From assembly GCA_025351645.1 (NCBI GenBank), contig JANXVN010000131.1:1-42371 (forward strand): a DNA stretch of 42,371 nt, in the 5' to 3' direction. Below are positions 4,883-42,009 of the stretch, piece after piece. Numbering within the stretch: the stretch's first letter is position 1; each line of letters starts with the position of its first letter. The notes beneath the pieces are model-generated. The model ran no database searches. It saw only the letters and a list, made by a program, of their open reading frames with translations, and was not told where the DNA came from. The stretch comes from Ferruginibacter sp. (GTDB taxonomy: Bacteria; Bacteroidota; Bacteroidia; Chitinophagales; Chitinophagaceae). The position numbers were made by a program, and so were the translations under genes.

Positions 4883-5301
4883 TATCTAAAATAGTTTTTG
4901 GAAATTATAGTTGGTAGAACTGTTGCTTTAAGTTGGCAATATGCGTATTAAAGCACCGTAACTTACCCAAATTTATAAGCAGCTTCAAATTACTGTAAAA
5001 TATTCAACTTGGGATGCTTGGCAGGTATTTATTTAACGTTTATCTGCTAATGCCGTTTAATTAAGGGTTTAAATGTTTATGTTTTACCTTACTTAACCCT
5101 AACCTTCTCCAAAAAAGAGAAATGGCCTTGACATAACGGGATTGGTATATGTGCCTCTATCAAAAATTAATTGGTAAATAAATAGTACAAGGCGCTTTAA
5201 CAATTATACGTGGATTGTTAGTTCAATTAAAAAATGGTGATAATTATTAAATACAAAAGTGTAGGTAAATACTTTATTTTGCTATTCAAAAGAGCTTATT
5301 C
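4883..5301. other. Divergent intergenic region between uxaB and the Crp/Fnr gene
   Basis: No gene is seen. It must hold the promoter of the hexuronate operon (leftward) and of the Crp/Fnr gene (rightward). A TAAATTTG -7-like element on the minus strand lies at 4968-4975, but no correctly spaced TTG was found. MITE copy A occupies 5048-5144. Confidence 0.4.
5048..5144 (+). repeat. MITE-like element, copy A (family 1)
   Basis: This 97-bp element has degenerate terminal inverted repeats (TAATGCCGTTTAA on the left, AACGGGATTG on the right). Between them is the family core: a TTTACCTTA...CCCTAACC...TCTCC stretch followed by a purine-rich complement. The 10 bases on each side (5038-5047 GTTTATCTGC and 5145-5154 GTATATGTGC) match at 8 of 10 positions, consistent with an aged target-site duplication. 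Confidence 0.7.
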
Positions 5302-9662: not shown

Positions 9663-10104
9663 AGCCTGTAACCCTGCCTGGCACATAATTGTTTTTAGAT
9701 ATGCATAAACTTATAGTTGGCGAGTTATGTAGATAGCCGGTAATTCCAGTTTTTATATTCCATTGTCAATGCGAGTACACTCTCCTCTTTTAAAAGGCTA
9801 TCGTTACTTTTACAGTTACACTTTGGAATTAGGACTTTTATTTTCTCCTGGCGTAGGACAGTTCTTGAACTATTAATTCCTCAACAATCAGTATTGCTAA
9901 CATCATTTTATGGATTGCGCAAAATAATGCAGCTTATTATTTGCACCATTTTTCTAATTGAAACTACAAAAGAATATTTATTTTAGTCCAAGTTTTTAAG
10001 GACGAATTTTAATTAATTTTAAGCTTACAGCATTACCGCTGTTGAAGTTGCAGGAGGCCTACGCAATTACAAGTATGGTGGTAAAAGATGCCTGAAAAAC
10101 CAAA

Positions 10105-18600: not shown

Positions 18601-21600
18601 GCCGTATTGTTACAACTATTTTGCGCATTTGTGCCTGCGGCAGATGATAGTACAATGCTTGCTGCAGGATTAACAGTAATGCTGCCTATTTCAGTATCTG
18701 GCGTACAAGTACCGGTAGAAACCACTTTATAATTGAAAGTACCGCTAACTGTTGGTGTGCCGGAAATAACGAATATACCACCACTATAATTAGTGCTAAG
18801 CCCTGCTGGCAAACCAGTTGCTGTTACACCTGTAACAGGGCCACTTGCGGTGTATTGTATGTTTGTTATAGACGTATTGATGCACAATGTTTGGGCATCG
18901 GTACCAGCTGCAGAAGATAATGTAAGGCTCTGCGTTTGTACAGTAATGGTGCCGGAAGTAGTTACCTGTGTACAAGTGCCCCCTGTTGTGGTGATGGTGA
19001 ACGGATAAGAACCTGCTACTGTTGGTGTACCGCTTATGGTATAAGTAGTGCCGCTTAAAGTTGCTGTTACGCCGGCAGGCAAGCCTGTTGTGGTAGCGCC
19101 GGTTGCAGTACCACCAATTTTATAAGCTATGGTTACCGTACTGTTGGCACAAACAATTGGCGTACTACTGCCCGATGTAAGTAAAATAGAAGGTGCAACC
19201 GCAGTAATATTTCCGGTAACAGTAATAGGGTTACAGCCTGTAGTGGTTATTGAATATGGATAACTGCCTGCCACTGTTGGCGAGCCGGTTATATTTACCT
19301 GGTCTCCACTAAAGGCGCTTGTTACGCCTGCTGGTAAACCTGTAACTGTTGGCCCGGCAGAAGTACCATTGCCTACGTTATATGTTATGGTTACTATCGG
19401 TGTGTTTGTACAAACAGTTTGGTTATTGCTTCCGCCTGCAGATTCCAAGGTAACGAATGTAGATAATGTACCAAACGATATATCATCTATACCAAAGTCA
19501 TTAGCCCCTGCAGAAGTTTCCAAATCTGTTATAGAAATATTTACTGTACTGGCCGTAGGGCCTGATGTCCAGTTGCCATAAAACCGTGTCCAATTATTTA
19601 CGCCTAAGGAAAGCGTATCGATAGAACCTACCTGTGCGCCTGCCACGTTAAATTGCAGCCTGGCAACTGGTGAGCCGTTATTCAGGGTCATTCCCCATGC
19701 AGAATAGTAGTAGGTGGTATTTGGCAGTACATTTACTGTCTCCTTCCAAATAACCAAAGTACCATGCCCGTTTACAAGCATAAAATTCCTGGGCCCGGGA
19801 GTATTATTCGTATGGTCCTGGCCGTAAAAACCAGGGTGGTAATTTTGCCCGTCTAATCCCACTCCATAACCATTGGTGCCGGTATCATCTACTAATGCAT
19901 TAGTGCTGGCCGCATGATAAGTATAATCACTAGTAAAGCCTGTATTGCCAGCGGTAAAATCACCATTAACCACTAGTTCCTGCGCTACGGATATATTAGC
20001 CGACGAAGTACAGCCTGCCGGTGTTTTAACTACAACATAGTAATTGGAAGATATATCTACATCAATCGTTTGTGTTGTTGCACCGGTGTTCCACAAATAG
20101 GTAACGCCTGTTGCAGGGTAAGCCGTTAAATGTACTTTATTAGGCACAAGGCAATAATCTGCCGTAATGCTTGCAACAGGCAATGGATTAACTGTTAGCG
20201 TAACGTTGGATGCATTGGTACAACCAGTTGCACTTGTTGCAGTAGCAGTGTATACTACAGAGACTGCGGCTGTTGGCTTTACATAAACCGTAGTAAGGCT
20301 TTGTCCAGTATAAGCAACAGTAGCGGCCGCATCTGAATATAGGTTAGTTGATGGCGACCAGGTAAAGGAAGGAATAGTGTAATTAATGGTAATAGACCAG
20401 TTGTTGATAGTACCTGTATTTAAACTGGTAAGGTCTCTTGTACTTAATACCCAATTGCCGTTTGGCGTAGAGGCATATAAAGATGCAAATGTGGTTACGG
20501 TTGCTGTATTGCCACCCCCAGCTGTTGCTCCTACTATACCCGCTGCTCCATCTGCCATGTAAGTACTGCTGAATGGTGCGGCACCAGTTATAGCGGTTGC
20601 CGATGCGCTGCTAATGGTGGTATTGGTAAAGTTCTTTCCTGTGCCGCCTTTTTGGTTCACTAAGTTGAGCACACTATTGTTAGGCGCTTTTAAATTGATG
20701 GTAAGGTCATTATCATTATTGTGCGTGATATTAAAGTTTACGCTTACACTGGTAACCACGGCCCCTGCTGGTAAAGCTGGTATAACCAACGAGCTTGCCG
20801 CACCAACCGTGCTATTATCTGGTATGGAAATATTTACGTTGCCAGATGCGATGGTAGTACTGGCAGAACTACTGGCCGAACTTAAAGCAATTATCCCTCC
20901 TACACAAACCGCAGGGGAAGCAGGCGAAATAACGGGCGCTACTGGCAAAGCAGAAACTGTAACCGTTACAGTGCCCGACTGGCTTTGTGTACAGGCTGAT
21001 GCGCTTCCTTCCTTAATGCTTACTAGGTTATAATTAAATATACCGGCAGTGCCAGTTGGCACAGCCAGCATTACCGTATTACCGGCTGTTGTAGCAATTG
21101 TTAAATTAGCGCCACCATTAATATTATACGTAAAAGTATAAGGTGCTATACCATTTGTACCAGTAAAAGTAATAGTTGGCGAAGCGGCATTTAAACATAC
21201 GGCAGTTGATCCGCTTATAGTTGCAACAGGCAAGGCGCTTATTGTAATGGTTACTGGTGTTGAGTTAGCTATTGCGCAAACACCACTTTGCACCACTGCC
21301 CTGTATAAAGTTGTTTGGGTTAAATTGGCATAAGTTAATGAACTTGTTGTATTGGCTATTGTTGCCCAACTACTACCACCATTTATCGAATACTCCCATC
21401 TTACCACATTACCTGTATTGCCTGTTAAAGAAAGCGTGGCTCCATTGGTGCCAGAACAGGCGGTGGCACTTGCATTTACTGTACCGCCAACAGATACCGC
21501 ATTTACAGTAATAATAACCACTGTTGAAGTTGCGATAGAACAAGCACCGCTTTGTATAATTGCCCTGTATTGTGTAGTCTGTATAAGGTTGCTATAAGTT

Positions 21601-24600
21601 AATAAATTGGTTGTATTGGTTATTGTTGACCAACTGGCACCACCGTCTATGGAAGACTCCCATCTTACCACATTACCTGTATTGCCTGCCAAAGTAAGCG
21701 AGGCCCCATTGCTGCCAGCACATACAGTTGCACTTGCACTAACGGTACCGCCTACTGATAGCGGATTAATAGTAATAACTGCAGAACCAGCCTGTGCCTG
21801 TGTACAGGCAGAAATGCTTCCGTCTTTAACATTGGTTAGGGTGTAGGTAAAAGTACCGGCTGAAGTTGTTGGTGCTGATATAGCTGCTACAGCCGTTGAA
21901 CCTGCCGATGTAACCTGCTGGCTTGCTCCCCCATTTATGGTATAGGTAAATACATAAGGCGCAGTACCGTTAGCACCAGTAAATGTAATAACCGGGGAAG
22001 TGCCGTTTATACATACCTGCGCAGTACCGCTTATGGTTGCTGTAGGAGTTGGGTTTACTTTAACGATTACCGAACCAGTTTGTAGCTGGGAACAATTGGC
22101 ATCTGCAACACTTACAAGATTGTAAGTAAAAGAACCGGTTGCAGTTGTTGGTGCGGCAACTGTTACCGTGTTGCTAGATACTGTTGATACTGTTAGCGAA
22201 GCCCCACCATTAATATTGTAAGTAAACGTAAATGGTGCAGTGCCTATTAGCCCTGTAAATGTTACATTAGGCGATGCAGCGCTTTGGCAAACGCTTGTTG
22301 CTCCGCCGATTGTTGCAGTTGGTGCCGGGGTTATAGTTACAGTTGCGGTACCAGCCTGCGACTGAGAACAGGTATTTGCATCCGCCACGCTTAAAAGGTT
22401 ATATGCATAAGAACCGCTTGCTGTTGTTGGTGCCGCAATGGTTACCGTATTGCCTGCAGTAGTAGATACCGTTTGGGTAGCACCCCCGTTAATATTATAT
22501 GAAAACGTAAATGGCGCTGCACCTGAAACGCCTGTAAAAGTAATGTTGGGCGATGCTGCATTTTGGCATACAGCCACTGTACCACTTATAGTTGCAGTTG
22601 GCAAGGCATTCACTGTAACTGGTATCGTAGTAGGCGATGCAGCTGAACAACCTGTAACTTCTGTCCAGTTAACACTTACCGACCCTGTACCTAAAGTTGT
22701 CCATTTAATAGTTGCAACATTTGTAGTGCCGCCGGCAGTAATTGTTCCTCCGGTAACCGTCCAGGTATAATTAGTTTTGAGTGCTTGTGTTGTATAAGTA
22801 ACGCTGCTGTTTAAACAAGATGAGGCAGGGCCTGATATAGTTGGTATGGTACCAGTGTTACCTGTAAGCGTAGCAGGCGTAGCGGCAGTACATCCAAAAG
22901 AGTTTGAATAATTTATACTGATAGCTTTTGTTCCGGCACCCCATAAAACCGTCACTGTATTACTGGTGGATGTGCCACCACTTACAATTGTTGCTCCGGT
23001 GATATTCCATATATAATTTAACTGGCCAGCTTGTGTTGTATATGTTGCTGTAGCACCCGGGCATAAAGGGTTTGGCCCGCTTAAAGTAACTACTGGTATT
23101 GCATGCGCAGCAACAATTTGGCTTGCTACTGCTGCACAGCCACTACCATTGGTAATTGTATAACTGATGGTAGTTGAACCGTCTGCTACACCTGTTACTA
23201 TGCCTGTTGTACTAATAGTGGCAATGGTAGTATTGCTGCTTGCCCAAACGCCACCTGTTGTAGCATCTGCTAAAGCAAGGGTGCTATTTACACACACATT
23301 GAATGTGGCGGGTGCGGTAACAGTTATAGCCGCCACGGAAGGCAAAGGATTTACAGTAATACTGGTTGTTACTTTGGTAATACAACCGGAAGCGTTGGTA
23401 ACGCTGTAAGTTATGGTTACAGTGCCTGCGCCAACACCTGTTACCAGCCCAGTTGTACTTACAGTTGCAAAAGAGGTGTTGCTGCTGCTCCAGGTGCCGC
23501 TTGTTGTCGCATCTGTCAATTGAGTAGTGCTGCTGATACATACGCCAGATGCACCTGCAATGGCAGCTACAACCGGAACCGGGTTTACTGTAACCGAAGT
23601 GCTTGCTACTGCCGTACAGCCATTGCTATTAGTAACAGTATAGTTAATTACAGCAGTGCCTGAGGCAACGCCAGTAACTACACCTGCACTGTTTACAGTA
23701 GCTATGCCAGTATTAAGGCTACTCCAAGTACCGCCCGAAGTTGCATCTGCAAGGTTGGTTGTGCTATTTACACATACACTTGTTGTACCCGTAATGGCTG
23801 CTATTGTTGGTAAAGTATTTACTGTAATGTTAATTGTATTTAAAAACGCAATGCAATTATTTGAATTGGTAATAACCACCTGCATCTTATCCCCATTTAT
23901 CAGGCCACTCGTTGCATATGTGGCTATCGCCGAGTTTTGAACAGAAACATTATTAAGTAAAAAATTGTAATTAGTAAAACCACCAGGTGCGGTAAATGTC
24001 ACTATCGCTCCTGTACAAATAATACCATCATTAGCCGTGTTGCCAGAATTTTCAACGGCTACAAGCGTACCAGTTGGCAACGCGTTTACAGTTTGAGTAA
24101 TACTGTTAAAAGTAGTTGAACAGGTATTGGTATTAGCAACATCTACTGTTATAACATCGCCATTATTTATTGTTGTGGTACTGTAAGTATTAGCGGTGCC
24201 AATTTGTGTTACTGTGCCGTTTACTTTAAAAGTATATTTAGCAAAACCTGTAGTGGCAGTGTATGTTATATTATCGCCCGCACAAATGTTGGCCAGCGAT
24301 GCTGTTAATGTACCTGTTGGTGATGCAATTACGGTAATTTTTACCTGGTTAAATGATGCGGTACAAGAAGCTCCGCTAGTAACATCTACCGTTACAATAT
24401 CATTATCTAATAAAGATGAATTACTATAGGTATTGGCTGATGTGTTTTGTACAGATGCTCCATTTAGTTTAAAATTATAATTGCTAAAACCTGAGGTAGC
24501 TGTAAAACTTACTGTTGCTCCGGCGCAGATAGAATTATCGTTTGCAGTACCTGAATTTTCTGCTGCACTCAAGGTGCCTGTTGGCAGCGCATTTACAGCC

Positions 24601-27600
24601 ATAACTACCGGGGCAAAAGTATTAGTGCAGCCTGAGGCATTAGTAGCAGCAACGGTAATAATTTGCCCGTTGGTAATGGCGGTGCTGCTGTAGGTACTAA
24701 CGGTACCACTTTGCACTGTTGTTCCATCAACTTTAAATATATAAGATGTAAACCCTGCGGTTGCTGTAAAGGTAACATTGCTGCCTGCGCAGATAGCTGT
24801 TGGCGATGGGGTGAGCGTACCATTTGGCACTGCATTAAGGTTAATTGTAATTGGTGAAGAAGTTGTTATGCAACTGTTTGCATTGCTAACATCTACGGTT
24901 ACAACATCGCCGTTATTAAGCGAACTGGTATTATACGTACTGGCTGTACCGCTTTGCATGGTGCTGCCATTTACATTAAATGCATAGTTGCTGCCAGCAA
25001 CACCGGCGGTAAAAGTTACCATATCCCCCGGGCAAATAGTTGTTTTGCTTGCCGAAAGTGTTGCCGTTGGAACCGCTTTTACGGAAATAGTAACTGCATT
25101 AAAAGTACTGCCGCAATTTGCCACATTTGCCACATCTACCGTTACCACATCTCCGTTAACAAGCGAATTAGTACTAAAGGTATTTGATGTGCTGGCAGGC
25201 TGCTTTATTATTCCGTTAACTTTAAAAGTATAGGCACCATAGCCACTTGTTGCTGTAAAAATAACATTAGCGCCTGCGCATATAATGTTATCATTATTGG
25301 CTACACCCGAATTTTCTGCAGCAGCGAGCGTACCCAATGGTATTGCTATAACAGTTACACCATAAACTGGTGATGAAGCACTTGGACATACATTGTTATT
25401 GGTAGTGATGTAAGTAATATTGGCACTGCCAGCACTTATACCTGTAACCACACCAGTATTGCTTACTGTTGCTATTGCTGTGTTAGAGGATGACCATACA
25501 TAAGTAAGCGTACCAGTTCCTGTACCATTGGAAGTTAAGGCCAGGGTACCTGCAACGCATAAACTATTGGTTCCTGAAGCCTGTGTTATTGCGGCGGCAG
25601 TTGGTACATTGGCAACTGCAAATGCGTAAGCCGGCGATGTACTGGAAGGGCATCCTGTCGCATCAGTAACAACATAACTGATATTTGTATTGCCTTCACT
25701 AATACCGCTTACCACGCCTGAACTATTTACCGTAGCTATGCCTGTATTTGAAGATGACCATACATAAGTAAAAGGAGCAACACCAGTTGGGTTAGGTGTG
25801 AGCGTGGTAGAACTTCCTTTACAAATGCCTGCTGCACCTGTTATAGCATTAGCTATAGCGGGTACATTTACGGTAATAGTACGTATAGCAGATGTTGCCG
25901 AACAAGTGTTGCCATCTGTAACAGTATAAGTTATATTAGCAGTACCGGCAGCAACGCCTGTAAGTACGCCGCTGGTAGTAACAGTTGCTACAGATGTATT
26001 GGAAGATGCCCAGGTATACGTTAAAGTTGCTGTGCCTGTAGCATTTGAAGTTAAAGTAATATTACTGCCAACACACACTTTAGTAGCGCCGGTAATTGCG
26101 TTAGCAATAGGGGCGGTAATGGTAACCACAAAGTTGGAGGAAGCTGCGCTACTACAGCCATTGGCATCGGTAGCTATATAAGTTATATTAGCAGAACCAA
26201 TAGTTATGCCAGTTACCACACCCGAACTATTTACTGTAGCAACCCCTGTATTAGATGATGCCCAGGTATATGTAAATGGCGCCACACCAGTTGCTGCTGG
26301 TGTTAACGTAGTGGTATTACCCACGCAAGCTTTGTTAGTACCAGTTATGGTACCGGCCGTTGGTTTTGATATAGTTATTGTAAAAGGTGCTGAAACAGCA
26401 CCTACACAACCATTACCATCTGTTACTATGTAGGTTATGTTTGTTGTTCCGGTGGCCTTGCCCAGCAAAGCTCCGGTAGCTGCATTAATGGTGGCGGTTG
26501 CTGTGGTGGAAGATGTCCATGCATAAGTAAACGGAGATGTTCCAATATCGTTGCCTGCCAAAGTAATTGTACTTCCAATACAGGTTGTGGATGGCCCTGT
26601 TGTGCCTACCGAAACTGGCTTTGGATTAACAACCTGCGCCCCTGATACATTACTGACAGTAGCACTACAAGCGCTTGCACCGGCTGCTATACAGTAATAA
26701 TATAATGTACCCGCTGCAGTACCTAAAGGGGTATAATTTGCTGTGGTAGCTCCAGTTAAAATGGTGCCCCCGCTGTTGGAAGCTGTAGTATTGCTATACC
26801 ACTGATAGCCAGTGGCGCCTGTTGCTGTTATTGAAAGAGCAGTAAACGAACCGCCTATACATACGCTTTGAGTTGCTGTTGAGGGCTGCGTAGTTATGGG
26901 TGGCCCTGCTATTGAAATTGTTACGTTTTGGGTGGGGGTAATAAAATTGGTATTGCCCGGGCCTGCGCAACCAGCAGTATTATCGCCGAATGCACAAATG
27001 CCTGCTTTTATTACATCAAAGCTTATATTTTCAGCGGCATTGGGTGCGGCTGGCGCTGTAACCGGAATGGTATAAGTTGTTGTTGCACCAGCTAAAAGGT
27101 TTGCAGCCGTAACAGTATAATCATAACCGCTATTGGCATTAAATTTTGCACCAATATTTATGGTGGGTGATGTGGTTGTCCAGGTTGCGGTACCTATATT
27201 TTTTATGGTAACCGTAACGCTCCTTGTTTCGTTGATACACCAGTTTGTCGATCCTGTACTGGCTGATGTAATTTGGCTTTTATAAGTTAGCGTAGGTGTA
27301 AATGTAAAAACCCGCCTGGAACCATCTGCCGTGCTATTTAACCCTGGTAATGGGCCTGCTACCGTATTGGTGGCTGTTATTGGCATTGCGGCAATAGTTG
27401 TGGCATAAGTTGCCTGGTCAACACTAAATTCATTGTTCGCGCCAACATCATTTGAAATACCGATGGCTGCTATTTTTGAAGTTGTTACCCCGGCCGCATT
27501 ACCTATTTTCATAGCCCCGTACACAAATTCAATTATGTTTGATTGCTCGTAAAGCCGCACTTGAAAAGTCCCATCATATGTCGTTTGTACACCGCTATAA

Positions 27601-28220
27601 TTAATTTTCATGTTCAAAAACTCTACAACCAAAGTGCGGTTAGGCGCTGTACCCACTGTTTTGTAATGGACTTTACCCAAGGTAGAGATTTTTAAATCGC
27701 TTAAATAAGGCGCAATAATAGCTTGGGTTGCTAGAGGAAAGTTAGAACCTATAGTAGTACCTAAAATTGCGGTTGCCCCTAACCGCATAGCTCCATTGCT
27801 TGAAGCAGAAAATTGTGTAAAAGGAGTGCCACCACCACTAAAGTAATAAAAATTGAAACCAATATTCATTACAGCAGAAGCCGAATCATCCCGAGTAGGA
27901 CCTACTAAATAAGTTGTACCGGTAGTCATATCAACCGCGTTGCCATTCCTATCCAGTACAAGCGAGCCGCTGCTCGAAGTAGAAAAAGTGTACTGTGTAG
28001 CATCAGTTGCTTGCGCTACTGCTTTTTGGCTTATCGCAAAACTGCTTACTATAAAAAATACAGCCATTGAGCGTATCAAGGCTTTATTAAATTTATGTAC
28101 AGAATTTTTTAAAAACGGAGTATTGCTACTAAAGGATTTTGTAAAGCTAAGGTTGCTTTTTCCTAATAGTTTAGTAAGGGATGCCATGTAAGTTTCCTTC
28201 ATAAAGCTTGGTTTATTCAT
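15618..28220 (-). CDS. Giant T9SS-secreted multi-Ig-domain surface protein (adhesin-like), 4200 residues
   Basis: The N-terminus has a long basic n-region (about 50 residues) before the signal core MAVFFIVSSFAIS and A-Q-A cleavage near residue 71. There follow a globular beta domain (72-300), a CARDB-like segment (about 300-430), one Ig-like domain, five BIG2-type modules (about 535-960), six related beta modules with FKVNG...NGDVVTVDV (960-1470), three short BIG2 modules (to about 1705), two PKD-like modules (to 1870), and six more Ig-like modules (to 2420). Next come a P-domain (about 2455-2605), a galactose-binding-like module (2745-2920), five GLPAGVT-type putative-Ig modules (2923-3360), a beta-helix-like part, an FN3-like domain (about 4020-4100) and the T9SS type A sorting domain (from about 4117, YPNPV... 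ending TTIQVVIR). It is probably a cell-surface adhesin or matrix protein. No catalytic domain is seen. Confidence 0.92.
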   Translation of the reverse strand: MNKPSFMKETYMASLTKLLGKSNLSFTKSFSSNTPFLKNSVHKFNKALIRSMAVFFIVSSFAISQKAVAQATDATQYTFSTSSSGSLVLDRNGNAVDMTTGTTYLVGPTRDDSASAVMNIGFNFYYFSGGGTPFTQFSASSNGAMRLGATAILGTTIGSNFPLATQAIIAPYLSDLKISTLGKVHYKTVGTAPNRTLVVEFLNMKINYSGVQTTYDGTFQVRLYEQSNIIEFVYGAMKIGNAAGVTTSKIAAIGISNDVGANNEFSVDQATYATTIAAMPITATNTVAGPLPGLNSTADGSRRVFTFTPTLTYKSQITSASTGSTNWCINETRSVTVTIKNIGTATWTTTSPTINIGAKFNANSGYDYTVTAANLLAGATTTYTIPVTAPAAPNAAENISFDVIKAGICAFGDNTAGCAGPGNTNFITPTQNVTISIAGPPITTQPSTATQSVCIGGSFTALSITATGATGYQWYSNTTASNSGGTILTGATTANYTPLGTAAGTLYYYCIAAGASACSATVSNVSGAQVVNPKPVSVGTTGPSTTCIGSTITLAGNDIGTSPFTYAWTSSTTATATINAATGALLGKATGTTNITYIVTDGNGCVGAVSAPFTITISKPTAGTITGTNKACVGNTTTLTPAATGVAPFTYTWASSNTGVATVNSSGVVTGITIGSANITYIATDANGCSSAASSNFVVTITAPIANAITGATKVCVGSNITLTSNATGTATLTYTWASSNTSVATVTTSGVLTGVAAGTANITYTVTDGNTCSATSAIRTITVNVPAIANAITGAAGICKGSSTTLTPNPTGVAPFTYVWSSSNTGIATVNSSGVVSGISEGNTNISYVVTDATGCPSSTSPAYAFAVANVPTAAAITQASGTNSLCVAGTLALTSNGTGTGTLTYVWSSSNTAIATVSNTGVVTGISAGSANITYITTNNNVCPSASSPVYGVTVIAIPLGTLAAAENSGVANNDNIICAGANVIFTATSGYGAYTFKVNGIIKQPASTSNTFSTNSLVNGDVVTVDVANVANCGSTFNAVTISVKAVPTATLSASKTTICPGDMVTFTAGVAGSNYAFNVNGSTMQSGTASTYNTSSLNNGDVVTVDVSNANSCITTSSPITINLNAVPNGTLTPSPTAICAGSNVTFTATAGFTSYIFKVDGTTVQSGTVSTYSSTAITNGQIITVAATNASGCTNTFAPVVMAVNALPTGTLSAAENSGTANDNSICAGATVSFTATSGFSNYNFKLNGASVQNTSANTYSNSSLLDNDIVTVDVTSGASCTASFNQVKITVIASPTGTLTASLANICAGDNITYTATTGFAKYTFKVNGTVTQIGTANTYSTTTINNGDVITVDVANTNTCSTTFNSITQTVNALPTGTLVAVENSGNTANDGIICTGAIVTFTAPGGFTNYNFLLNNVSVQNSAIATYATSGLINGDKMQVVITNSNNCIAFLNTINITVNTLPTIAAITGTTSVCVNSTTNLADATSGGTWSSLNTGIATVNSAGVVTGVASGTAVINYTVTNSNGCTAVASTSVTVNPVPVVAAIAGASGVCISSTTQLTDATTSGTWSSSNTSFATVSTTGLVTGVGAGTVTITYSVTNASGCITKVTTSITVNPLPSVAAITVTAPATFNVCVNSTLALADATTGGVWASSNTTIATISTTGIVTGVADGSTTISYTITNGSGCAAVASQIVAAHAIPVVTLSGPNPLCPGATATYTTQAGQLNYIWNITGATIVSGGTSTSNTVTVLWGAGTKAISINYSNSFGCTAATPATLTGNTGTIPTISGPASSCLNSSVTYTTQALKTNYTWTVTGGTITAGGTTNVATIKWTTLGTGSVSVNWTEVTGCSAASPTTIPVTVNALPTATISGTVAVCQNAASPNITFTGVSGAAPFTFSYNINGGATQTVSTTAGNTVTIAAPTTASGSYAYNLLSVADANTCSQSQAGTATVTITPAPTATIGGATSVCQSAASPNVTFTGLIGTAPFTFTYNINGGASLTVSTVSSNTVTVAAPTTATGSFTYNLVSVADANCSQLQTGSVIVKVNPTPTATISGTAQVCINGTSPVITFTGANGTAPYVFTYTINGGASQQVTSAGSTAVAAISAPTTSAGTFTYTLTNVKDGSISACTQAQAGSAVITINPLSVGGTVSASATVCAGSNGASLTLAGNTGNVVRWESSIDGGASWSTITNTTNLLTYSNLIQTTQYRAIIQSGACSIATSTVVIITVNAVSVGGTVNASATACSGTNGATLSLTGNTGNVVRWEYSINGGSSWATIANTTSSLTYANLTQTTLYRAVVQSGVCAIANSTPVTITISALPVATISGSTAVCLNAASPTITFTGTNGIAPYTFTYNINGGANLTIATTAGNTVMLAVPTGTAGIFNYNLVSIKEGSASACTQSQSGTVTVTVSALPVAPVISPASPAVCVGGIIALSSASSSASTTIASGNVNISIPDNSTVGAASSLVIPALPAGAVVTSVSVNFNITHNNDNDLTINLKAPNNSVLNLVNQKGGTGKNFTNTTISSASATAITGAAPFSSTYMADGAAGIVGATAGGGNTATVTTFASLYASTPNGNWVLSTRDLTSLNTGTINNWSITINYTIPSFTWSPSTNLYSDAAATVAYTGQSLTTVYVKPTAAVSVVYTATATSATGCTNASNVTLTVNPLPVASITADYCLVPNKVHLTAYPATGVTYLWNTGATTQTIDVDISSNYYVVVKTPAGCTSSANISVAQELVVNGDFTAGNTGFTSDYTYHAASTNALVDDTGTNGYGVGLDGQNYHPGFYGQDHTNNTPGPRNFMLVNGHGTLVIWKETVNVLPNTTYYYSAWGMTLNNGSPVARLQFNVAGAQVGSIDTLSLGVNNWTRFYGNWTSGPTASTVNISITDLETSAGANDFGIDDISFGTLSTFVTLESAGGSNNQTVCTNTPIVTITYNVGNGTSAGPTVTGLPAGVTSAFSGDQVNITGSPTVAGSYPYSITTTGCNPITVTGNITAVAPSILLTSGSSTPIVCANSTVTIAYKIGGTATGATTTGLPAGVTATLSGTTYTISGTPTVAGSYPFTITTTGGTCTQVTTSGTITVQTQSLTLSSAAGTDAQTLCINTSITNIQYTASGPVTGVTATGLPAGLSTNYSGGIFVISGTPTVSGTFNYKVVSTGTCTPDTEIGSITVNPAASIVLSSAAGTNAQNSCNNTAITPITYTITNGTGAAITAGALPTGVTGSFSGGVFTITGTPTVVGTFNYTVTTNGGCASSLASGTITTTIQTITLSSGSVSPLVCINTAITSIVYTIGGTATGATVSGLPAGITGSLSGKVFTISGTPIVAGVYNYIVTTTGTCATATAAGTITVQAQPVGGTLASVNVCLGSSGTLTLTGQTGSITRWESSTDNGSTWTNIVNNTISQSYTNVATTTKYRVLISNGCGSVYSTIGTVAVQDLWAGTVSTSWYTAANWNDGVVPTTACPTVTIPAGTPFACVLGAGTPPPIINLDIKSGATLTIIGTLQMAGSLTNAGTLNATAGTIEFNGTSAQNIAGSTFLNNTMMNLTVTNTAGLVVSNTAGSLLKITGALSFGNVNNSNLSTGDNVVLISTATGTARVADITNNGANSGNTFSGKVAVERYYPARRAWRLLTAPLSGAGLVFDTWQNGGVYTAGRGTYISGPGANPAANGMDVSPLSNTSLKVGSSLAPVTNTRTTNLSSSTGSTDNKGYFMFVRGDRVFNNFIIPNTTITTLSSIGKLQTNAQAFSVTPTANAYSLIGNPYASPVDFSKLTRSNLLNRFYAWDPYLNTEQGGYVLVDDPTNSGTYTVVPTSPGNQTKVIQSSQAVFVQTQLTGAALLTFVEPAKSTANNLSIFRVAGAPLPAFRTDLYLVNADSTTILADGNIAQFDNQFHSGIDQQDALKFNNVLETFGLQNGNTFLVADRRPPVTVNDTLFYKFMKVKQRKYQFKFQASDMDDMLMPILEDSYTNKRTTLKINNSTIVNFEIDANTASQAANRFRIVFKSKPLPLQYTSLTAAQQIKNVVVGWKVAHELTVKNYEIERSKDSISFTKILAKVPTADTTGIASYIGIDESAVSGSYFYRIKNNNLDSSFGYSKVIKVTLDKSFENIGVYPNPVVQGTIGLQMTYQPQGQYYVRLINALGQVVLTTQITHPGGMAMHNITINTKLPTGVYTLEVTKPNKVKTTIQVVIR

Positions 28221-34043: not shown

Positions 34044-34937
34044 CTATATTGTAGCTTTTATTAGCTCCATCACCTGTTCAAAATCTGGTGCACACCAGCT
34101 AACTTCTTCATCTTTTTTAAACCAGGTAAGCTGCCTTTTAGCGTATTGGCGGGTATTTATTTTTATAGCTTCTACGGCATCAATTAATGTAAGGTCGCCA
34201 ATTAAATGACCGAATAATTCCCTGTAGCCTACCGTTTGCAAAGCATTTAAATTTTTATAAGGCACTAACGATTTTACCTCTTCCAGCAAGCCGTTATGCA
34301 TCATTGCATCTACCCTGCTATTTATTTTTTTGTGTAAGTCTTCTTTAGGTATTTCCAGCCCAATCCTTATAATATTAAAATCTCGGTTTCGCTTTTGCTG
34401 GGTTTGAAATTCGATGATAGACTTGCCCGTAGATAGCTTTACTTCCAAAGCACGCATTAAACGCTGGGGGTTTTTTGTTTCGCCTTTTTCAAAATATAAT
34501 GGGTCTTTTGTTGCCACTTCTTTTTGCAGCCATTCTAGTCCTTCCCATTCAAAATCGGCTATAATTTGTTCCCTTATTGATGGGTTTATTACTGGTACTT
34601 CATCAATGCCATCTGCAAATGTTTTTATGTACAAGCCTGTGCCACCAACCATTACAGCAATATCGTGCTGCTTAAATATTTCTTTTGCCTTGCCCAATGC
34701 ATACAGTTCAAAAATGGCGGCATTCAACGTATCTTTTATGGAATGTGAGTTGATAAAAAAATGCTTTACCAATTGCAGTTCTTCGGTAGATGGCTTTGCT
34801 ACGCCGAGGTTTAATTCTTTAAAACACTGGCGGCTATCAGCAGAAATAATCTCTGTAGAAAATTGTTGCGCCACTTGTATGGCCAATGCGGTTTTACCAA
34901 TTGCTGTTGGGCCAACTATTATAATGCAAGTCTTCAT
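34044..34937 (-). CDS. miaA: tRNA dimethylallyltransferase
   Basis: A 297-residue enzyme that adds a dimethylallyl group to A37 of tRNAs reading UNN codons. The P-loop GPTAIGKT is at residues 9-16. Next come SADSRQCFKELNLGVAKPS (tRNA- and substrate-binding), VGGTGLYIKTF and NPQRLMRALEV. The C-terminal family blocks LQTVGYRELFGHL and INTRQYAKRQLTWFKKD complete it. Length is normal. It is the last gene of a minus-strand tRNA maturation group. The 297-bp gap upstream contains MITE copy B, which may have separated it from the genes above. Confidence 0.95.
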   Translation of the reverse strand: MKTCIIIVGPTAIGKTALAIQVAQQFSTEIISADSRQCFKELNLGVAKPSTEELQLVKHFFINSHSIKDTLNAAIFELYALGKAKEIFKQHDIAVMVGGTGLYIKTFADGIDEVPVINPSIREQIIADFEWEGLEWLQKEVATKDPLYFEKGETKNPQRLMRALEVKLSTGKSIIEFQTQQKRNRDFNIIRIGLEIPKEDLHKKINSRVDAMMHNGLLEEVKSLVPYKNLNALQTVGYRELFGHLIGDLTLIDAVEAIKINTRQYAKRQLTWFKKDEEVSWCAPDFEQVMELIKATI

Positions 34938-35024
34938 TAATGGATATTTTCTTAAATGATAATTAGCTAATGGATAATTGATAATGTTTCGATAACGATG
35001 TTAGTCGATTAAATAATTAACATC

Positions 35025-35115
35025 CAATGCCGTTAAGTTAAGACCTTTCCTCTCCTTTGGAGAGGGTTAGGGTAAGGTAAAGACAAACAAATAGTTCCAT
35101 AACTTAACGGCATTG
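35025..35115 (-). mobile_element. MITE-like element, copy B, best preserved (family 1)
   Basis: A 91-bp element with perfect 16-bp terminal inverted repeats: CAATGCCGTTAAGTTA at 35025-35040 and its exact complement at 35100-35115. It is directly flanked by a perfect 10-bp direct repeat AATTAACATC (35015-35024 and 35116-35125). Inside, CCTCTCC-ttt-GGAGAGG forms a hairpin next to the GTTAGGGTAAGGTAAAGA core. It has no coding capacity. The core reads on the minus strand relative to copies A, C and D. Perfect ends and perfect duplication indicate recent insertion. Confidence 0.85.
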
Positions 35116-35234
35116 AATTAACATCTATAATAAAATTGTAAGTAAAAATCAGGCAATAAGAATACGCTTTATGAATTGAAAGAAGTAGCAAGGATAAAAA
35201 TTATCCATTATCAATTTAAAAATTATCAATTAAA

Positions 35235-35816
35235 CTAAAAGTCTTCCTGGGCTTCATCGCCCACGCCTTCTTCTTCTTCAGGGCTTTGGGTTATATTGCC
35301 TTCCTCGTCTTCTTCGCTATAGCCTTCCAGCATTGCAGCGGCGTTTAAATCATATTTTTCTTCTACTTCTGCAAGGCGTTTATCTATCAGCCCTTTAGTA
35401 CCATATTGTGATGGAGAAATACCTTCTGTGCGCAGGCAGGTGGGGTACACTAATTTTTTATTTTCTTCTTTATCTACATTAATAAGCTCTACCATAAATG
35501 TCCACAGCTTATTAAAATCGTATACATAAATAAATTTTTGGTTGGGGTCTTTTATTTCAGAGCCCAATGTTACATCTGTCATTATAAGCGGGCTAACCTT
35601 GTAGGTTTTATCATCGTATTTCTCTAAAGAAATTTCCCTGCCTCTTAGCCAACTATCGTTGCTGCGGTAAAAAGTGGCTTTGTGTTTGTTATCAAAATCA
35701 AAGCTTTTTAATATAGAATTGTGCAGGTCTGCAAAATTTTGGTTGTGCTTAATCACCACATCCCTGTAAATGCTATCGTCATCTTCCCAATAAATCCTAA
35801 AACGTAATATTGCCAT
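35235..35816 (-). CDS. Plasmid pRiA4b ORF-3-like family protein
   Basis: A 193-residue cytoplasmic protein. It opens with the family pattern LRFRIYWEDDDSIYRDVVIKHNQNFADLHNSILKSFDFDNKHKATFY, continues with W.RG.E.....D, has the late D-F-x-x-L-W-T-F-M-V-E-L block, and ends in a strongly acidic tail (EEDEEGN...EEEEGVGDEAQEDF). The family's biochemical role is unknown. It lies 45 bp downstream of the CCA gene and upstream of miaA, so it may share their transcript. Chromosomal copies like this one are common in Bacteroidota. Confidence 0.8.
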   Translation of the reverse strand: MAILRFRIYWEDDDSIYRDVVIKHNQNFADLHNSILKSFDFDNKHKATFYRSNDSWLRGREISLEKYDDKTYKVSPLIMTDVTLGSEIKDPNQKFIYVYDFNKLWTFMVELINVDKEENKKLVYPTCLRTEGISPSQYGTKGLIDKRLAEVEEKYDLNAAAMLEGYSEEDEEGNITQSPEEEEGVGDEAQEDF

Positions 35817-35861: not shown

Positions 35862-37277
35862 TTATTGCTGAAAAATACCCAATGCTTTAGCTTTTTCTAC
35901 CATAAAATTAAAAGCAGCATCGTGATCATTTGGTATTTCCCCTTCCAATATCGCTTCGCGGATGGCACTCTTTAAATCTCCAACTACCCTTCCTGGTGGC
36001 AGGTTAAATGTTTCCATTATCAACTCGCCGGTTATGGGTGGCTGCCAGTTACGCAACTGGTCGCTGGCTTCCACTTCTGCACAGCGCTTGCGTACTATTT
36101 CAAAGTTTTCTAAAAACCGCTTTACTTTTTGTTTGTTTTTGCTGGTAATGTCTGCGTTACATAAAGCCATCAATGCATCAAAATCTTCGCCAGCATCAAA
36201 TAACAGCCTTCTTATGGCGGAGTCTGTAATATTTTCTTTTGTAAGGCTGATGGGGCGCAAGTGTAATTCCACTAATTTCCTAACAAAGCGCATCTTATCG
36301 TTTTGAGGTAATTTTAGTTTGGCAAAAATTTTCGGCACCATCCTTCCGCCCAATGCTTCGTGCCCATGAAATGTCCAGCCATGGCCTTCTTCAAACTTCT
36401 TTGTTGCTGGCTTTGCAATATCATGCAATACGGCAGCCCAGCGCAGCCATAGGTCGTTGGTATGCTGCGCTATATTATCTACAACTTGCAGCGTATGGTA
36501 AAAATTATCTTTATGCCCCATGCCATCAATATATTCTGCGCCGGCAAGATCTACCATTTGTGGAAAGATGATTTTTAGCAAGCCAGTCTTAAATAGCAAT
36601 TCAAAACCGATGGATGGTTTTTGGCACATCAATATTTTGTTCAGTTCGTCTGCAATTCGCTCGCCGCTAACAATTTTTATGCGTTCTTTATTTTCGCCAA
36701 TGGCGATAAAAGTTTTTTCTTCTATCGTAAAGTTTAATTGTGCCGCAAAGCGGATGGCACGCATCATGCGCAAAGGGTCGTCGCTAAAAGTTTGGGCTGG
36801 TAGCAGCGGCGTTTTTATTATTTTATTTTCAATGTCGCTAATGCCGTTAAAGGGATCTACCAATTCACCAAAATTGTCTTTATTAAGGCTAATGGCAAGT
36901 GCGTTGATGGTGAAGTCGCGCCTGTCCTGGTCATCTTTTAAATTGCCTGCGGCTACCTGTGGCTTGCGGCTATCGTAGGTGTAGCTTTCTTTACGTGCCC
37001 CTACAAATTCCAGGTCAACATCGTCAATATTAAATTGGGCTGTGCCGAAGTTTTTAAAATAGTTTACGGCAGGCTTATGCGAAAATAGCTGTGCTACTGC
37101 GTGTGCTAATTCTATCCCATCGCCAATGCAGACTACATCGATATCTTTTGTATTACGCCCAATAATTTTATCCCTTACAAAACCACCGATAACATAACAA
37201 GGCAGTTGCAGCTTTTGGGCGGCTGCGGCAATTTTATTAAAAATAGCCAATTCTTTATCGGTGCAATGGATGTACAT
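35862..37277 (-). CDS. cca: CCA tRNA nucleotidyltransferase / poly(A) polymerase family with HD domain
   Basis: A 471-residue class II nucleotidyltransferase. The N-terminal catalytic motif is IGGFVRDKIIGRNTKDIDVV with Gly31-Gly32 and the metal-binding D45-x-D47. RRDFTINALA (neck) and DPLRMMRAIRFAAQL (base-recognition helix) follow. An HD phosphohydrolase-type segment (VLHDIAKPATKKFEEGHGWTFHGHEALG) begins near residue 283 and is the bacterial CCA-adding layout with 2',3'-phosphatase activity. It would add or repair the 3' CCA end of tRNAs. It is first in a minus-strand group with the pRiA4b-like gene and miaA. Confidence 0.9.
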   Translation of the reverse strand: MYIHCTDKELAIFNKIAAAAQKLQLPCYVIGGFVRDKIIGRNTKDIDVVCIGDGIELAHAVAQLFSHKPAVNYFKNFGTAQFNIDDVDLEFVGARKESYTYDSRKPQVAAGNLKDDQDRRDFTINALAISLNKDNFGELVDPFNGISDIENKIIKTPLLPAQTFSDDPLRMMRAIRFAAQLNFTIEEKTFIAIGENKERIKIVSGERIADELNKILMCQKPSIGFELLFKTGLLKIIFPQMVDLAGAEYIDGMGHKDNFYHTLQVVDNIAQHTNDLWLRWAAVLHDIAKPATKKFEEGHGWTFHGHEALGGRMVPKIFAKLKLPQNDKMRFVRKLVELHLRPISLTKENITDSAIRRLLFDAGEDFDALMALCNADITSKNKQKVKRFLENFEIVRKRCAEVEASDQLRNWQPPITGELIMETFNLPPGRVVGDLKSAIREAILEGEIPNDHDAAFNFMVEKAKALGIFQQ

Positions 37278-37438: not shown

Positions 37439-37550
37439 AGATGCTGTTAAGGTAAGGTTTGTTCCGTTTTTTACTTCACCCCTAACCCTTTTCCAAAAGA
37501 GATGGGCGCTTGGCACTACTGGACGAAAACCGCTTACCATAACGGCGTTG
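37439..37550 (+). repeat. MITE-like element, copy C (family 1)
   Basis: A 112-bp, more degraded copy. The left end reads ATGCTGTTAAGGTA, the right end TACCATAACGGCGTTG, and the core TTTTACTTCACCCCTAACCC lies between them. Flanks 37429-37438 (ATTATTTCAT) and 37551-37560 (GTTCTTTTAT) match at 7 of 10 positions. Confidence 0.6.
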
Positions 37551-37818: not shown

Positions 37819-40272
37819 ATGAAAACTGCAGAATTTACTGCGTGTTTTGACATTTTGACTATATTAAGAATTATGGATAATAAGTTTTTTATACCCGGGA
37901 TGGAAGAAGAAATGGAGTTTATGCCTATTATTCCATTAAATGAAGATGACAGCGAAGACAACGATGCACAGCCAATTCCAGACGAATTACCCTTGTTGCC
38001 GTTACGCAATACCGTACTTTTTCCGGGTGTTGTTTTACCTATTACTGTTGGTAGGGATAAAAGTATTAAGGCCGTGAGCGATGCTTATAAGGCTGACAAA
38101 TTGATAGGTGTAATAGCGCAAAAAGACAGTAGTGTTGAAGAACCCCTGATAAGTGATTTGGAAGAAATTGGTACTGTAGCAAAAATAGCCAAACTAATAA
38201 AAATGCCCGATGGCGGCACCACTATTATAATACAAGGCAAAAAGCGATTTAAGATCAACAAAATTACCAGCGTGGAGCCTTATTTTAAAGCTAAGATAAC
38301 TACGCTTGAACAAGAGGTTTTAAAAGATGACAGTGATTTTGATGCTATGGTAGGTAGTATTAAAGACCTTGCTTCGCAGATAATCAGCATTTCGCCTAAT
38401 TTACCCAGCGAGGCGGCTATTATTTTAAAAAATATTGAGAACCCCTCCTTTTTAATTCATTTTGTTAGCAGCAATTTAAATAGCGATATAAAAGATAAGC
38501 AGCGGTTATTGGTAATTAATGATATTAAGGAACGTGCGGAATTACTGATGAACCTGATGCAGACAGAACTGCAATACACAGAGTTAAAGAATAAGGTTAC
38601 CAATAAAACCCGTGCTGAACTTGATAAGCAGCAAAAAGAATATTTTTTGCATCAGCAAATGAAGGCTATTAAAGAAGAATTAGGCGGCGAAAATGTTGCA
38701 GAGTTAAAAGAGATGCTTAAAAAAGCCGAGACTAAAATTTGGCCGGTAGCTGCAAAGGAAATGTTTATTAAAAATGCGGAAAGATTAGAACGCATGCACC
38801 CCAGCACGCCCGATTACTCGGTAGTGTACAACCACATGGACTTAATGCTGGACCTGCCCTGGGAAGATTATACCGTTGATAGCTACGACCTTAAAAAGGC
38901 AAAAAAGATACTTGACAATGACCATTACGGCATGCACAAAATAAAAGAGCGCATACTGGAATACCTTGCTGTATTGAAATTAAAGGGCGATATGAAAAGC
39001 CCTATATTATGTTTTGTTGGCCCTCCGGGAATTGGCAAAACAAGTTTGGGTAAAAGTATTGCGCATGCCATTGCACGCAAATATGTACGTGTAAGCTTAG
39101 GCGGGCTGCGTGATGAAAGCGAAATTCGTGGGCACCGTAAAACTTATATTGGTGCTATGCCTGGCCGTATTATTCAAAGTATCCGCAAAATTAAGAGCAG
39201 CAACCCGGTCATGATTTTGGATGAAATAGACAAAGTTGGCAACGACCAGCGTGGCGACCCGTCCAGTGCTTTGTTAGAAGTTTTAGACCCTGAACAGAAC
39301 AATACTTTTTACGATAATTATTTAGAGCTGGAATATGACTTAAGCAAGGTATTATTTATCGCCACTGCAAATAACATCAACAATATACAACCTGCCTTGC
39401 GTGACCGTTTAGAGATAATAGACCTAAGTGGTTATGCAGTAGAAGAAAAAATAGAAATAGCCAAACAGCATTTGCTGCCCAAGCAACAAGAAGCGCATGG
39501 CTTAAAAAATGTAAAATTAAAAGCTGCTGATAAAGTAATTGAAAAGATTATTGAAGATTACACCCGTGAAAGCGGCGTGCGTGAGCTGGATAGGCAGCTG
39601 GCAGCTGTTATGCGTAATTTGGCGATGCAGTTTGCTACTAAAAATAAATTGAAGCCTACGCTTACAACACAAGATGTGGACCGTATTTTAGGCAAGCCCC
39701 GTTATAATAATGAAATGTACAAAACGGCCAACATGGCTGGCGTTGCCGTAGGGCTTGCATGGACATATGTTGGCGGCGATATATTATTTATTGAAATTAG
39801 CTTAAGCGATGGCAAAGGAGAATTAAAGATGACGGGCAATCTTGGTAATGTGATGAAAGAAAGTGCTACCACAGCATTTACCTGGCTACAGGTTAATGCT
39901 AAAAAGCTAAATATCGATGGTGAGATGTTTAATAAAAAGAACGTGCACATTCATGTACCGGAAGGCGCCGTACCAAAAGATGGGCCAAGCGCAGGCATAA
40001 CTATGATGACGGCTTTGGCCAGTGCTTTTACCGGACGTAAAATAAAATCGTACCTGGCAATGACGGGGGAAATTACTTTGCGTGGAATGGTTTTGCCCGT
40101 AGGTGGTATTAAGGAAAAAGTTTTAGCAGCCAGGCGCAGCGGTATTAAAGAAATTATTATGTGCTGGCAAAATGAAAAAGATGTGCTGGAAATAAACCCG
40201 CTGTTTATTAAAGGCATGAAATTTTATTATGTAAAAACAATGAACCAGGTATTAGAACTGGCACTTGCGTAG
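37819..40272 (+). CDS. lon: ATP-dependent Lon protease
   Basis: An 817-residue cytoplasmic AAA+ protease that degrades damaged and regulatory proteins. The N-terminal substrate domain begins LPLLPLRNTVLFPGVVLPI. The Walker A motif GPPGIGKTS is near residue 401 and Walker B is ILDEIDK. The proteolytic domain contains DGPSAG with catalytic Ser724 and KEKVLAA with Lys767 (numbers from 37819), spaced 43 residues as in E. coli Lon. The ATG at 37873 (MDNKFFIPGMEEEMEFMPI) is the more natural start; the first 18 residues are untypical. A terminator follows 127 bp after the stop. Confidence 0.95.
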   Translation: MKTAEFTACFDILTILRIMDNKFFIPGMEEEMEFMPIIPLNEDDSEDNDAQPIPDELPLLPLRNTVLFPGVVLPITVGRDKSIKAVSDAYKADKLIGVIAQKDSSVEEPLISDLEEIGTVAKIAKLIKMPDGGTTIIIQGKKRFKINKITSVEPYFKAKITTLEQEVLKDDSDFDAMVGSIKDLASQIISISPNLPSEAAIILKNIENPSFLIHFVSSNLNSDIKDKQRLLVINDIKERAELLMNLMQTELQYTELKNKVTNKTRAELDKQQKEYFLHQQMKAIKEELGGENVAELKEMLKKAETKIWPVAAKEMFIKNAERLERMHPSTPDYSVVYNHMDLMLDLPWEDYTVDSYDLKKAKKILDNDHYGMHKIKERILEYLAVLKLKGDMKSPILCFVGPPGIGKTSLGKSIAHAIARKYVRVSLGGLRDESEIRGHRKTYIGAMPGRIIQSIRKIKSSNPVMILDEIDKVGNDQRGDPSSALLEVLDPEQNNTFYDNYLELEYDLSKVLFIATANNINNIQPALRDRLEIIDLSGYAVEEKIEIAKQHLLPKQQEAHGLKNVKLKAADKVIEKIIEDYTRESGVRELDRQLAAVMRNLAMQFATKNKLKPTLTTQDVDRILGKPRYNNEMYKTANMAGVAVGLAWTYVGGDILFIEISLSDGKGELKMTGNLGNVMKESATTAFTWLQVNAKKLNIDGEMFNKKNVHIHVPEGAVPKDGPSAGITMMTALASAFTGRKIKSYLAMTGEITLRGMVLPVGGIKEKVLAARRSGIKEIIMCWQNEKDVLEINPLFIKGMKFYYVKTMNQVLELALA

Positions 40273-40521: not shown

Positions 40522-40609
40522 TACTGCCGTTAATTTAAGGGTTTTTTTGTCTTTACCTCATCCAACCCTCTTTAAGAAGAATAGGAAAGATGTTAACTTA
40601 ATGGCATTT
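40522..40609 (+). repeat. MITE-like element, copy D (family 1)
   Basis: An 88-bp copy with ends TACTGCCGTTAA and TTAACTTAATGGCATT and core TCTTTACCTCATCCAACCC. Flanks 40512-40521 (ATTTAAAATA) and 40610-40619 (ATTTGAAATT) match at 8 of 10, or 9 of 10 if the edge is moved by one base. Confidence 0.65.
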
Positions 40610-40725: not shown

Positions 40726-42009
40726 TTAAAACACTTCCCCCAAATTTAAAAACAGCCCTTTAGAGCCTTCTTGCCCAAAGCCATAATCAATAGCTAAGTT
40801 GGTGTTGGAATGTTTGTTAAGCTTAATCCTAAGCCCTGCACCAAAGCCTGGTGCTACTGCAATAAATTGCTGGGTGGTAAACTTACGGCTATAAGATTGT
40901 GTGTTGGCAAATACTACACCGCCGAGCAAACCGTTGTCGGTTATACCAAACCTATATTCTGCTTCGGTATAAATTAAATTTTTTGCGCGGAACCTGCTTT
41001 GTATATAGCCCCGGCCGGTATTGTATTGGTCATCCCAACCCGTGCTTGGCAATAATAAATAGGGAGGCTTCCCTTTAAGCGTAAGCCAGTCAAAGCTCCA
41101 TAAAGCCAGAATACTGCGGGGGTTGCCGTTAATTTTTATATACTTCCTAAAATCTATCTGCAACGAATTCCAATTTACATCGCTGCCTAAAAAAGTATAA
41201 TTGGGGCGAAAAACGATGCTGGCATAAGCACCATTAGTAGGGTTTATCTGGTTTTGGCGGTTATCGTATAACACTTTTAAGGCAATAGCAACCGCAGTAG
41301 CTGTTTTTTGGCTACCATACTTTTGAAACGAAGTTGTTACACCTGCCGGAGGGTCAATTTCACGTATATTCCATAGATGGTCATAATACAAACCTGCACC
41401 AGCATATAAATTGCGGTATACTTTTTTTAGTATAGATTGATGGAGTTTGATGTAATTAAAATTCAATGTGTACGCTTCGCTTTGCACGGTATGTGAACCT
41501 AAACCGTAAGTAATAGAAGGATATTTTAGGTAGCGGTAATCTGCCGAGATGATATAGCGGTTGTCTTTAGTCCAGATTGTAGCGGATAATGGAAAAAGTA
41601 TCTGGTTATATTGCGTATAAGCAACGTTAGTAAGGATGTTAGAAAGTTTTTTTGAGGCTGTATCAACATAAAAAGCAAAACTGCCACTTAACAATACTGC
41701 AAAACCTGTTTGTAAAGTATAACCTGCTGCTGGAAATATAGAAGCATAAAATTTTTTAGGTTTTGTGATAACAGTATCGGGGAAACTGTGCTTGTGGGAT
41801 GTAAACACCTGGTGTAAAAAGTCGCCTGCATCTAAGCCATCGCTCCCAGGAATTAAAGTTGGCTGTACCGGTTTGTTAAGAAGGGTATCCTTTATTTGTT
41901 GAGCCGAAACTGGCTTGGTAAAACCAATACCGCCTACAATACATAATATAGTTATAATATTTCTTATAAGGGCTGGTTGATGGTTCGGTAAGCGAGTTTT
42001 ATTAAACAC
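40726..42009 (-). CDS. BamA/D15-type outer-membrane barrel protein without POTRA domains
   Basis: A 427-residue protein with an N-terminal signal (hydrophobic IITILCIVGGIGF, cleavage near PVSAQ). The mature chain is beta-rich. The C-terminal half contains NQINPTNGAYASIVFRPNY (surface antigen family strand), GRGYIQSRFRAKNLIYTEAEYRF, and GFGAGLRIKLNKHSNTNLAIDYGFG near the C-terminus, as in the BamA C-terminal domain. It ends in F (LNLGEVF), the barrel insertion signal. No POTRA repeats fit before the barrel, so it is not BamA itself. Short D15-like proteins of this kind are common in Bacteroidota and have no assigned role. Confidence 0.8.
   Translation of the reverse strand: MFNKTRLPNHQPALIRNIITILCIVGGIGFTKPVSAQQIKDTLLNKPVQPTLIPGSDGLDAGDFLHQVFTSHKHSFPDTVITKPKKFYASIFPAAGYTLQTGFAVLLSGSFAFYVDTASKKLSNILTNVAYTQYNQILFPLSATIWTKDNRYIISADYRYLKYPSITYGLGSHTVQSEAYTLNFNYIKLHQSILKKVYRNLYAGAGLYYDHLWNIREIDPPAGVTTSFQKYGSQKTATAVAIALKVLYDNRQNQINPTNGAYASIVFRPNYTFLGSDVNWNSLQIDFRKYIKINGNPRSILALWSFDWLTLKGKPPYLLLPSTGWDDQYNTGRGYIQSRFRAKNLIYTEAEYRFGITDNGLLGGVVFANTQSYSRKFTTQQFIAVAPGFGAGLRIKLNKHSNTNLAIDYGFGQEGSKGLFLNLGEVF

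Follow-up and report, generated by a model that had tools for sequence, protein, structure and literature searches.

Between two genes of a Ferruginibacter contig lies a 91-bp sequence with inverted ends, bordered on each side by the same 10 bp. The question raised by this locus is whether the sequence belongs to a family of mobile elements, and which transposase could have moved it. The window, i.e. the whole stretch of 42,371 nucleotides that was analysed, is contig C185 of a genome of 4.71 Mb in 320 contigs. In the initial annotation, the sequence (copy B) was described as a miniature inverted-repeat transposable element (MITE) with three related copies in the window. The features concerned are as follows.

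35015..35024, no strand: left copy of the target duplication, AATTAACATC, 10 bp
35025..35115, + strand: copy B, 91-bp class, between a miaA-like gene at 34044-34937 (-) and a gene at 35235-35816 (-)
35025..35042, + strand: left terminal inverted repeat of copy B, 18 bp, CAATGCCGTTAAGTTAAG; perfect pairing with the right end over the first 16 bp
35049..35065, + strand: core palindrome of copy B, CCTCTCCTTTGGAGAGG, with GTTAGGGTAAGG after it up to 35077; shares homology with a DUF559 cassette end
35098..35115, - strand: right terminal inverted repeat of copy B, 17/18 to the family end
35116..35125, no strand: right copy of the target duplication, 10 bp, identical to AATTAACATC
5048..5144, - strand: older copy, 97 bp, ends 15/18, flanking 10-mers 8/10, between genes at 3359-4882 (-) and 5302-5883 (+)
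37439..37550, - strand: older copy, 112-bp class, flanking 10-mers 7/10, between genes at 35862-37277 (-) and 37819-40272 (+, lon)
40522..40609, - strand: older copy, 88 bp, ends 15/18, flanking 10-mers 8/10, between lon (+) and a gene at 40726-42009 (-)

Judged from the sequences compared here, it is very probable that these copies represent a MITE family in Ferruginibacter moved by an IS4-subgroup transposase encoded in the same genome. The family itself is new; its kind, MITEs mobilised by an IS4-subgroup element, is known.

Copies in the window and in the genome

Both perfect repeats ascribed to copy B are present: 35025-35040 pairs with 35100-35115 over 16 bp, and the 10 bp at 35015-35024 recur at 35116-35125 as AATTAACATC. 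The three further copies were also located correctly, and setting their edges from the ends gives flanking 10-mers that match at 8, 7, and 8 of 10 positions. They are older relatives of copy B. The described end length of 16 bp is true of the pairing within copy B, but the family end comprises 18 bp, CAATGCCGTTAAGTTAAG; the shorter length was read because of one change in the right end of copy B. Allowing up to three mismatches, nine end-like sites occur in the window against 3.2 expected, a number reached in none of 100 shuffles. Eight of them are accounted for by the four copies with two ends each, and the ninth, at 8816, is a stray. The core motif GTTAGGGTAAGGT alone, at the same tolerance, is not enriched in the window (16 sites vs 12.8 expected, with 16 reached in 27 of 100 shuffles), and Rfam gave no match there. 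Copy B differs from the 91-bp consensus at four positions and is not a typical young copy.

The high copy number anticipated from the window is borne out in the genome, where the inner 17 bases of the end, with at most one mismatch, occur at 290 sites, while the reversed pattern has none. Among 226 candidates from a search with copy B, 40 were scored (copy B excluded), comprising 39 full copies at 95-96% identity and one partial match at 78%. Copy sets derived from this search and from the end search are biased to near-perfect copies. An arbitrary sample of 40 stretches (446,845 bases, 9.5% of the genome), which has no bias toward such copies, contains 17 facing pairs of ends, compared with 0 in the same DNA reversed, and this extrapolates to about 180 pairs genome-wide. 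Single ends at the 13/18 threshold are unspecific in this sample (95 vs 49 in the control). The family consists of very small transposons that carry no genes and number well over a hundred in this one genome; it accounts for a repeat at which assemblies of such genomes will break.

Two sizes dominate among 72 distinct complete copies, 91 bp (47/72) and 112 bp (6/72), and no transposase gene is present in them. In the 91-bp class, where the set is biased to near copies, 16 of 47 are identical to the consensus and 15 differ from it at one position; in the arbitrary sample, the eleven 91-bp copies show 0 to 11 differences from it. RNA transcribed from either strand forms a single long hairpin (z -6.2 to -7.2). 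A MITE-like copy of 303 bp was also observed in the same genome (L077:130-432); its core appears to contain about 200 additional bp, partly arranged as inverted repeats.

Target duplications and position relative to genes

To characterize insertion sites, flanks of copies were compared, setting aside those with fewer than 13 bases of flank; in the first copy set, 29 of 30 loci were used (one copy lies at a contig edge) and L022, whose copy was mislocated, was counted as imperfect. Strict copies, with both ends at least 17/18, number 51 of the 72. A perfect 10-bp duplication was found in 36 of these 51 and was missing in the other 15, and at least eight of ten positions match in 48. Mean flank identity is 0.949 compared with 0.534 in mispaired flanks, in which perfect matches occur at a rate of 0.0016, so that the flank duplications proposed from copy B clearly exceed chance. 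Duplication lengths of 5-9 and 11-15 gave no perfect case, and no other length stands out. The 21 weaker copies, a group that includes a few doubtful pairs (e.g. L006 366 and L026 1717), show the 10-bp duplication as well (mean identity 0.62 vs 0.36), and it is perfect in two. The target consensus from the 50 best sites is palindromic, TTAnn-AATTATAATT-nnTAA.

Copies are largely confined to sequences between genes. After joining the flanks, 4 of 61 testable copies lie within a frame of at least 100 aa, compared with 344 of 419 random positions; the test required 420 bases of flank, which 61 of the 72 copies provide. Two of the four, L166 and L064, resemble real gene interruptions. In L166 the element at 10050-10140, with a perfect target duplication, splits a membrane-protein-like gene whose ortholog in genome G016 is a single frame, and the two pieces (1-279 and 1-90) align to adjoining residues of it with 53% and 59% identity. 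This uninterrupted ortholog may be regarded as the equivalent of an empty-site test at the protein level.

The genes on either side of the window locus stay neighbours in the genus: of 29 fetched relatives, 26 retain both. No end-like site was detected between them in any of these 26, which all lack the window element at the locus. The spacer corresponding to 35015 is too diverged in these relatives to align a single AATTAACATC.

The intergenic bias and the strong hairpins would also suit copies that no longer move and have been retained because they serve as terminators, mRNA 3' ends, protein-binding sites or the like. This is compatible with the family being IS4-mobilised MITEs. Decayed copies, the three older ones in the window among them, have persisted for a long time, which speaks for such retention. 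As an account of the present state of the family we nevertheless consider it unlikely. Neighbouring genes show no favoured arrangement (16 ++, 13 +-, 13 --, and 11 -+), old copies decay in the ends as well as in the core, many copies are identical, and the copy in the window is absent from the orthologous locus in the relatives described above. Hairpins and intergenic bias may leave room for secondary roles beyond transposition.

The probable IS4-type partner

A mobilising transposase outside the window, possibly of IS4-group type, had been predicted. The match of the ends, the 10-bp target duplication, and the IS4-family transposase of relatives all support it, and full-length IS4-group elements with matching ends were found complete in relatives (L094 and L238), while the genome under study holds three ends cut off by contig borders. 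When 396 genomes of the order were scanned for the end, allowing a single mismatch at most, it was detected in 23, including this one. Element L094 is 1404 bp long, with a 440-aa frame, ends matching at 17 and 16 of 18 positions, and a target duplication of 10/10. Element L238, from a Chitinophagaceae MAG, has 1398 bp, a right end identical to the MITE end (18/18), and also a 10/10 duplication. Its listed frame of 318 aa is shorter than that of L094 and may be broken. The L094 transposase is assigned to Pfam DDE_Tnp_1 and scores 184.4 bits with the NCBIfam model transpos_IS4_1 (NF033592, cut-off 115). L238 reaches 127.1 bits with this model, while fragments from G029, a genome of the same genus, stay under the cut-off with 106.3 and 41.5 bits. 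The ends of L115, an IS of genome G072, match those of the MITE, but the 10-bp duplication is absent there.

Matches to the L094 protein occur in 6 of 117 genomes, including the genome under study at C79:16-339. Two left ends of the IS are located in this genome, C79:1-397 and C10:8476-8666. Both carry the exact 18-bp MITE end, and they are identical over 191 positions except for one homopolymer base. A right end, C301:20377-20619, is identical to the G029 sequence at 236 of 243 positions, and its terminus matches the MITE end at 15/18. The three pieces have three different flanks, and therefore at least three IS insertions exist in the genome. Each piece stops at a contig edge, the IS middles are missing, and the assembly contains no complete copy.

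According to the accessible part of its description, the IS4 subgroup is defined by ends of the form -AATR--------WTW----, direct repeats of 10-13 bp, a YREK motif, and a length of about 1400-1650 bp, and some of its members show target-arm specificity (De Palmenaer et al. 2008, PMC2266710). The MITE end CAATGCCGTTAAGTTAAG fits all seven specified positions of this signature. Sizes of 1404 bp (L094) and 1451 bp (L115) lie in the range of 1400-1650 bp, and L238, with 1398 bp, is two short of it. The Y(2)R(3)E(6)K motif was read by eye as YRLRWTVEECYKRVK in L094, YHIRWGIEEAYKLFK in L238, and YHFRWGIEEAYKLFK in L128. Taken together, ends, duplication length, size, and YREK motif fit the published subgroup. 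The Pfam domain Nterm_IS4, found in the E. coli control, was detected in none of 59 genomes (the own genome and 58 relatives), and L094 has DDE_Tnp_1 only; Nterm_IS4 is not part of the subgroup definition as far as this is given in the accessible text of PMC2266710. The partner thus resembles the IS4 subgroup in end signature, repeat length, YREK, and size, and the system differs from the subgroup, as described in the accessible part of that source, in having a MITE without transposase (PMC2266710).

Other candidates were considered. A Pfam search of the genome revealed two uninterrupted DDE_Tnp_1 frames, L050 and L054, neither of them an obvious partner; at L054 a MITE-like copy lies on just one side. 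That the MITE is moved by another resident transposase, such as the DUF4372/DDE_Tnp_1 element L050 at C48, draws on the co-residence of L050, an IS4-family gene whose frame of 404 aa is uninterrupted. This reading is very improbable, as the flanking inverted repeats of L050, CATTGTTGTACGGTAAAA and CATTACTGTCCGGTAAAA, are unlike the MITE end, on which ground it was rejected, while the exact MITE end is carried by the pieces at C79 and C10. Closest plasmid relatives of the partner are ISPa1635-like and similar elements with about 27-33% identity. The ends of one ISPa1635-type relative, L133, are of CAATGTCATCAAC type and are not bordered by a 10-bp duplication; in another, L134, convincing ends were not found. 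In the viral collection, one contig holds one exact end (L247, 71-88), solitary and with no element around it. The MITE end presumably resembles the end of E. coli IS4.

Near-identical IS4-type ends with different interiors were also observed in genomes G055, G197, G150, and G144 (L087, L095, L098, L101, L108, L110, and L113). These elements have palindrome-rich interiors of 120-300 bp, and several adjoin CCC....GGG-like sites with imperfect 10-bp repeats.

For the family as IS4-mobilised MITEs, the following mechanism can be proposed. A transposase of the IS4 subgroup, encoded in the same genome, would recognise the shared 18-bp ends and probably act on the MITE in trans. Cut-and-paste transposition is the general mode of the IS4 family, and the same chemistry is presumed here. 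Insertion would take place at AT-rich palindromic sites, TTAnn-AATTATAATT-nnTAA, and leave 10-bp duplications. The system is likely to be active now or to have been so recently. The interior would travel as a passenger; in the 112-bp class, about 52 bp of it share homology with the terminal repeat of an in-frame DUF559 nuclease cassette and are framed by IS4-type ends.

The interior and the leuS cassette

The longest exact match of the MITE interior is 7-9 bases with each of three sequences, the left IS piece of the own genome (G000), L094, and L238; therefore, the MITE is not a deleted IS. The initial annotation described an internal core shared by the copies. It is indeed common to the window copies, but that this interior is also common to a different inserted element had been missed. 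The core CCTCTCCTTTGGAGAGGG is present in 39 of 298 genomes of the order, including the own genome, and the control count is 0 in every row listed. Outside the own genome it occurs mostly without MITE ends, as a dispersed palindrome. In contrast, 15 core copies sampled in the own genome lie between MITE ends, 14 of them with both ends at 13/18 or better and one with 16 and 12. The reading frame is open across the core at 17 of 45 loci in other genomes. In otherwise conserved Chitinophagales proteins, CCTCTCCTTTGGAGAGGG plus about TTGGGGTGAGG stands in frame and adds peptides such as PSPLERG and LSFGEG; such loci include L206, L208, L212, L215, L216, L217, L220, L229, and L041.

Rickettsia palindromic elements and REPs are likewise dispersed palindromes that can lie in frame within genes. 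The core alone, as found in other genomes, is similar to them, while the whole MITE differs by its IS-type ends and fixed target duplication. It is hardly credible that the family is a REP-like or hairpin repeat spread without target duplication (e.g. by a RAYT) and that flank matches merely reflect AT-rich sequence, since, against the single long hairpin of either transcript and the dispersal of the core outside MITE ends in other genomes, the perfect duplications of exactly 10 bp (36/51 vs 0.0016 when mispaired) refute such spread for the family as a whole, and the core copies sampled in the own genome are framed by ends as given above.

The homology of the MITE interior points to leuS, where a nuclease cassette is inserted in frame. 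In the leuS genes of G065, G196, and G110, the core occurs as an inverted pair around an extra domain, assigned to DUF559 in the case of G110. The leuS gene of the own genome (C91:34682-38089, L291:183-3590; 1136 aa) has an in-frame insertion at a different place from these three, with DUF559 at residues 567-670 (E 6e-35). The DUF559 insertion is absent from the 975-aa leuS product of G029. Ends of the own cassette are inverted repeats (41/50). Within a non-random set of 38 leuS frames, nine have an in-frame DUF559 insertion with inverted palindromic repeats, at one of two places. L293 and L294 carry it at the same site as the own genome, and the second site is occupied in L215, L254, L255, L257, L289, and probably L288.

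The interior of a 112-bp copy, L068, matches the two ends of the leuS cassette at 47 of 52 and 48 of 54 bases, and none of 1000 shuffles was as good. A weaker match was obtained with the 91-bp interior, likewise equalled in none of 1000 shuffles. From the match of the 112-bp interior, the MITE has the appearance of a cassette end trapped between ends of IS4 type; the 112-bp class looks to have been shortened later to the 91-bp class. An interior originating from the terminal repeat of another insertion would mean that IS ends can capture and amplify foreign repeats. A further reading, in which the MITE is a chimera and the cassette terminal repeats, sown over the genome by IS4 transposition in well over a hundred copies, could be bound, cut or recombined by the candidate DUF559 nuclease, is tentative and rather doubtful on the present comparisons. 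If true, one mobile system would build landing or cutting sites for another.

Two other groups of MITEs in Bacteroidota offer a comparison, within the accessible parts of their descriptions. MITECca01 of Cardinium is similar in its high copy number (169 copies), in ends resembling those of a resident IS, and in its mostly intergenic location (PMC9769881). It differs in having an IS982-family parent, of which it keeps a little subterminal sequence, while here the parent type is IS4 and only the ends are common (PMC9769881). BrickBuilt and other MITEs of Porphyromonas gingivalis share a repeat interior and IS-resembling ends with the present family (PMC4596501). Unlike it, BrickBuilt has 19 copies, duplications of irregular length in three of four complete copies, and a minisatellite interior (PMC4596501). 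A clean bacterial MITE tied to an IS4 partner by ends, target duplication, and co-residence thus adds to what seems, from the accessible parts of these sources, to be a small number described in Bacteroidota.

In the literature on IS4 MITEs of Bacteroidetes, on Ferruginibacter mobile elements, and on in-frame palindromes, no recognised description of the MITE family was found, and that on DUF559 with repeats or tRNA synthetases yielded none of the leuS cassette. The core as a string had no match in the literature searched, a body that has most subscription journals outside it. What a specialist would find unexpected is the chimeric interior together with the leuS cassette.

In addition, the window contains a single frame of 4200 aa (15618-28220, - strand) that contains bacterial Ig-like (Big_2) repeats as well as a stretch resembling a P-domain and probably encodes a giant surface protein.
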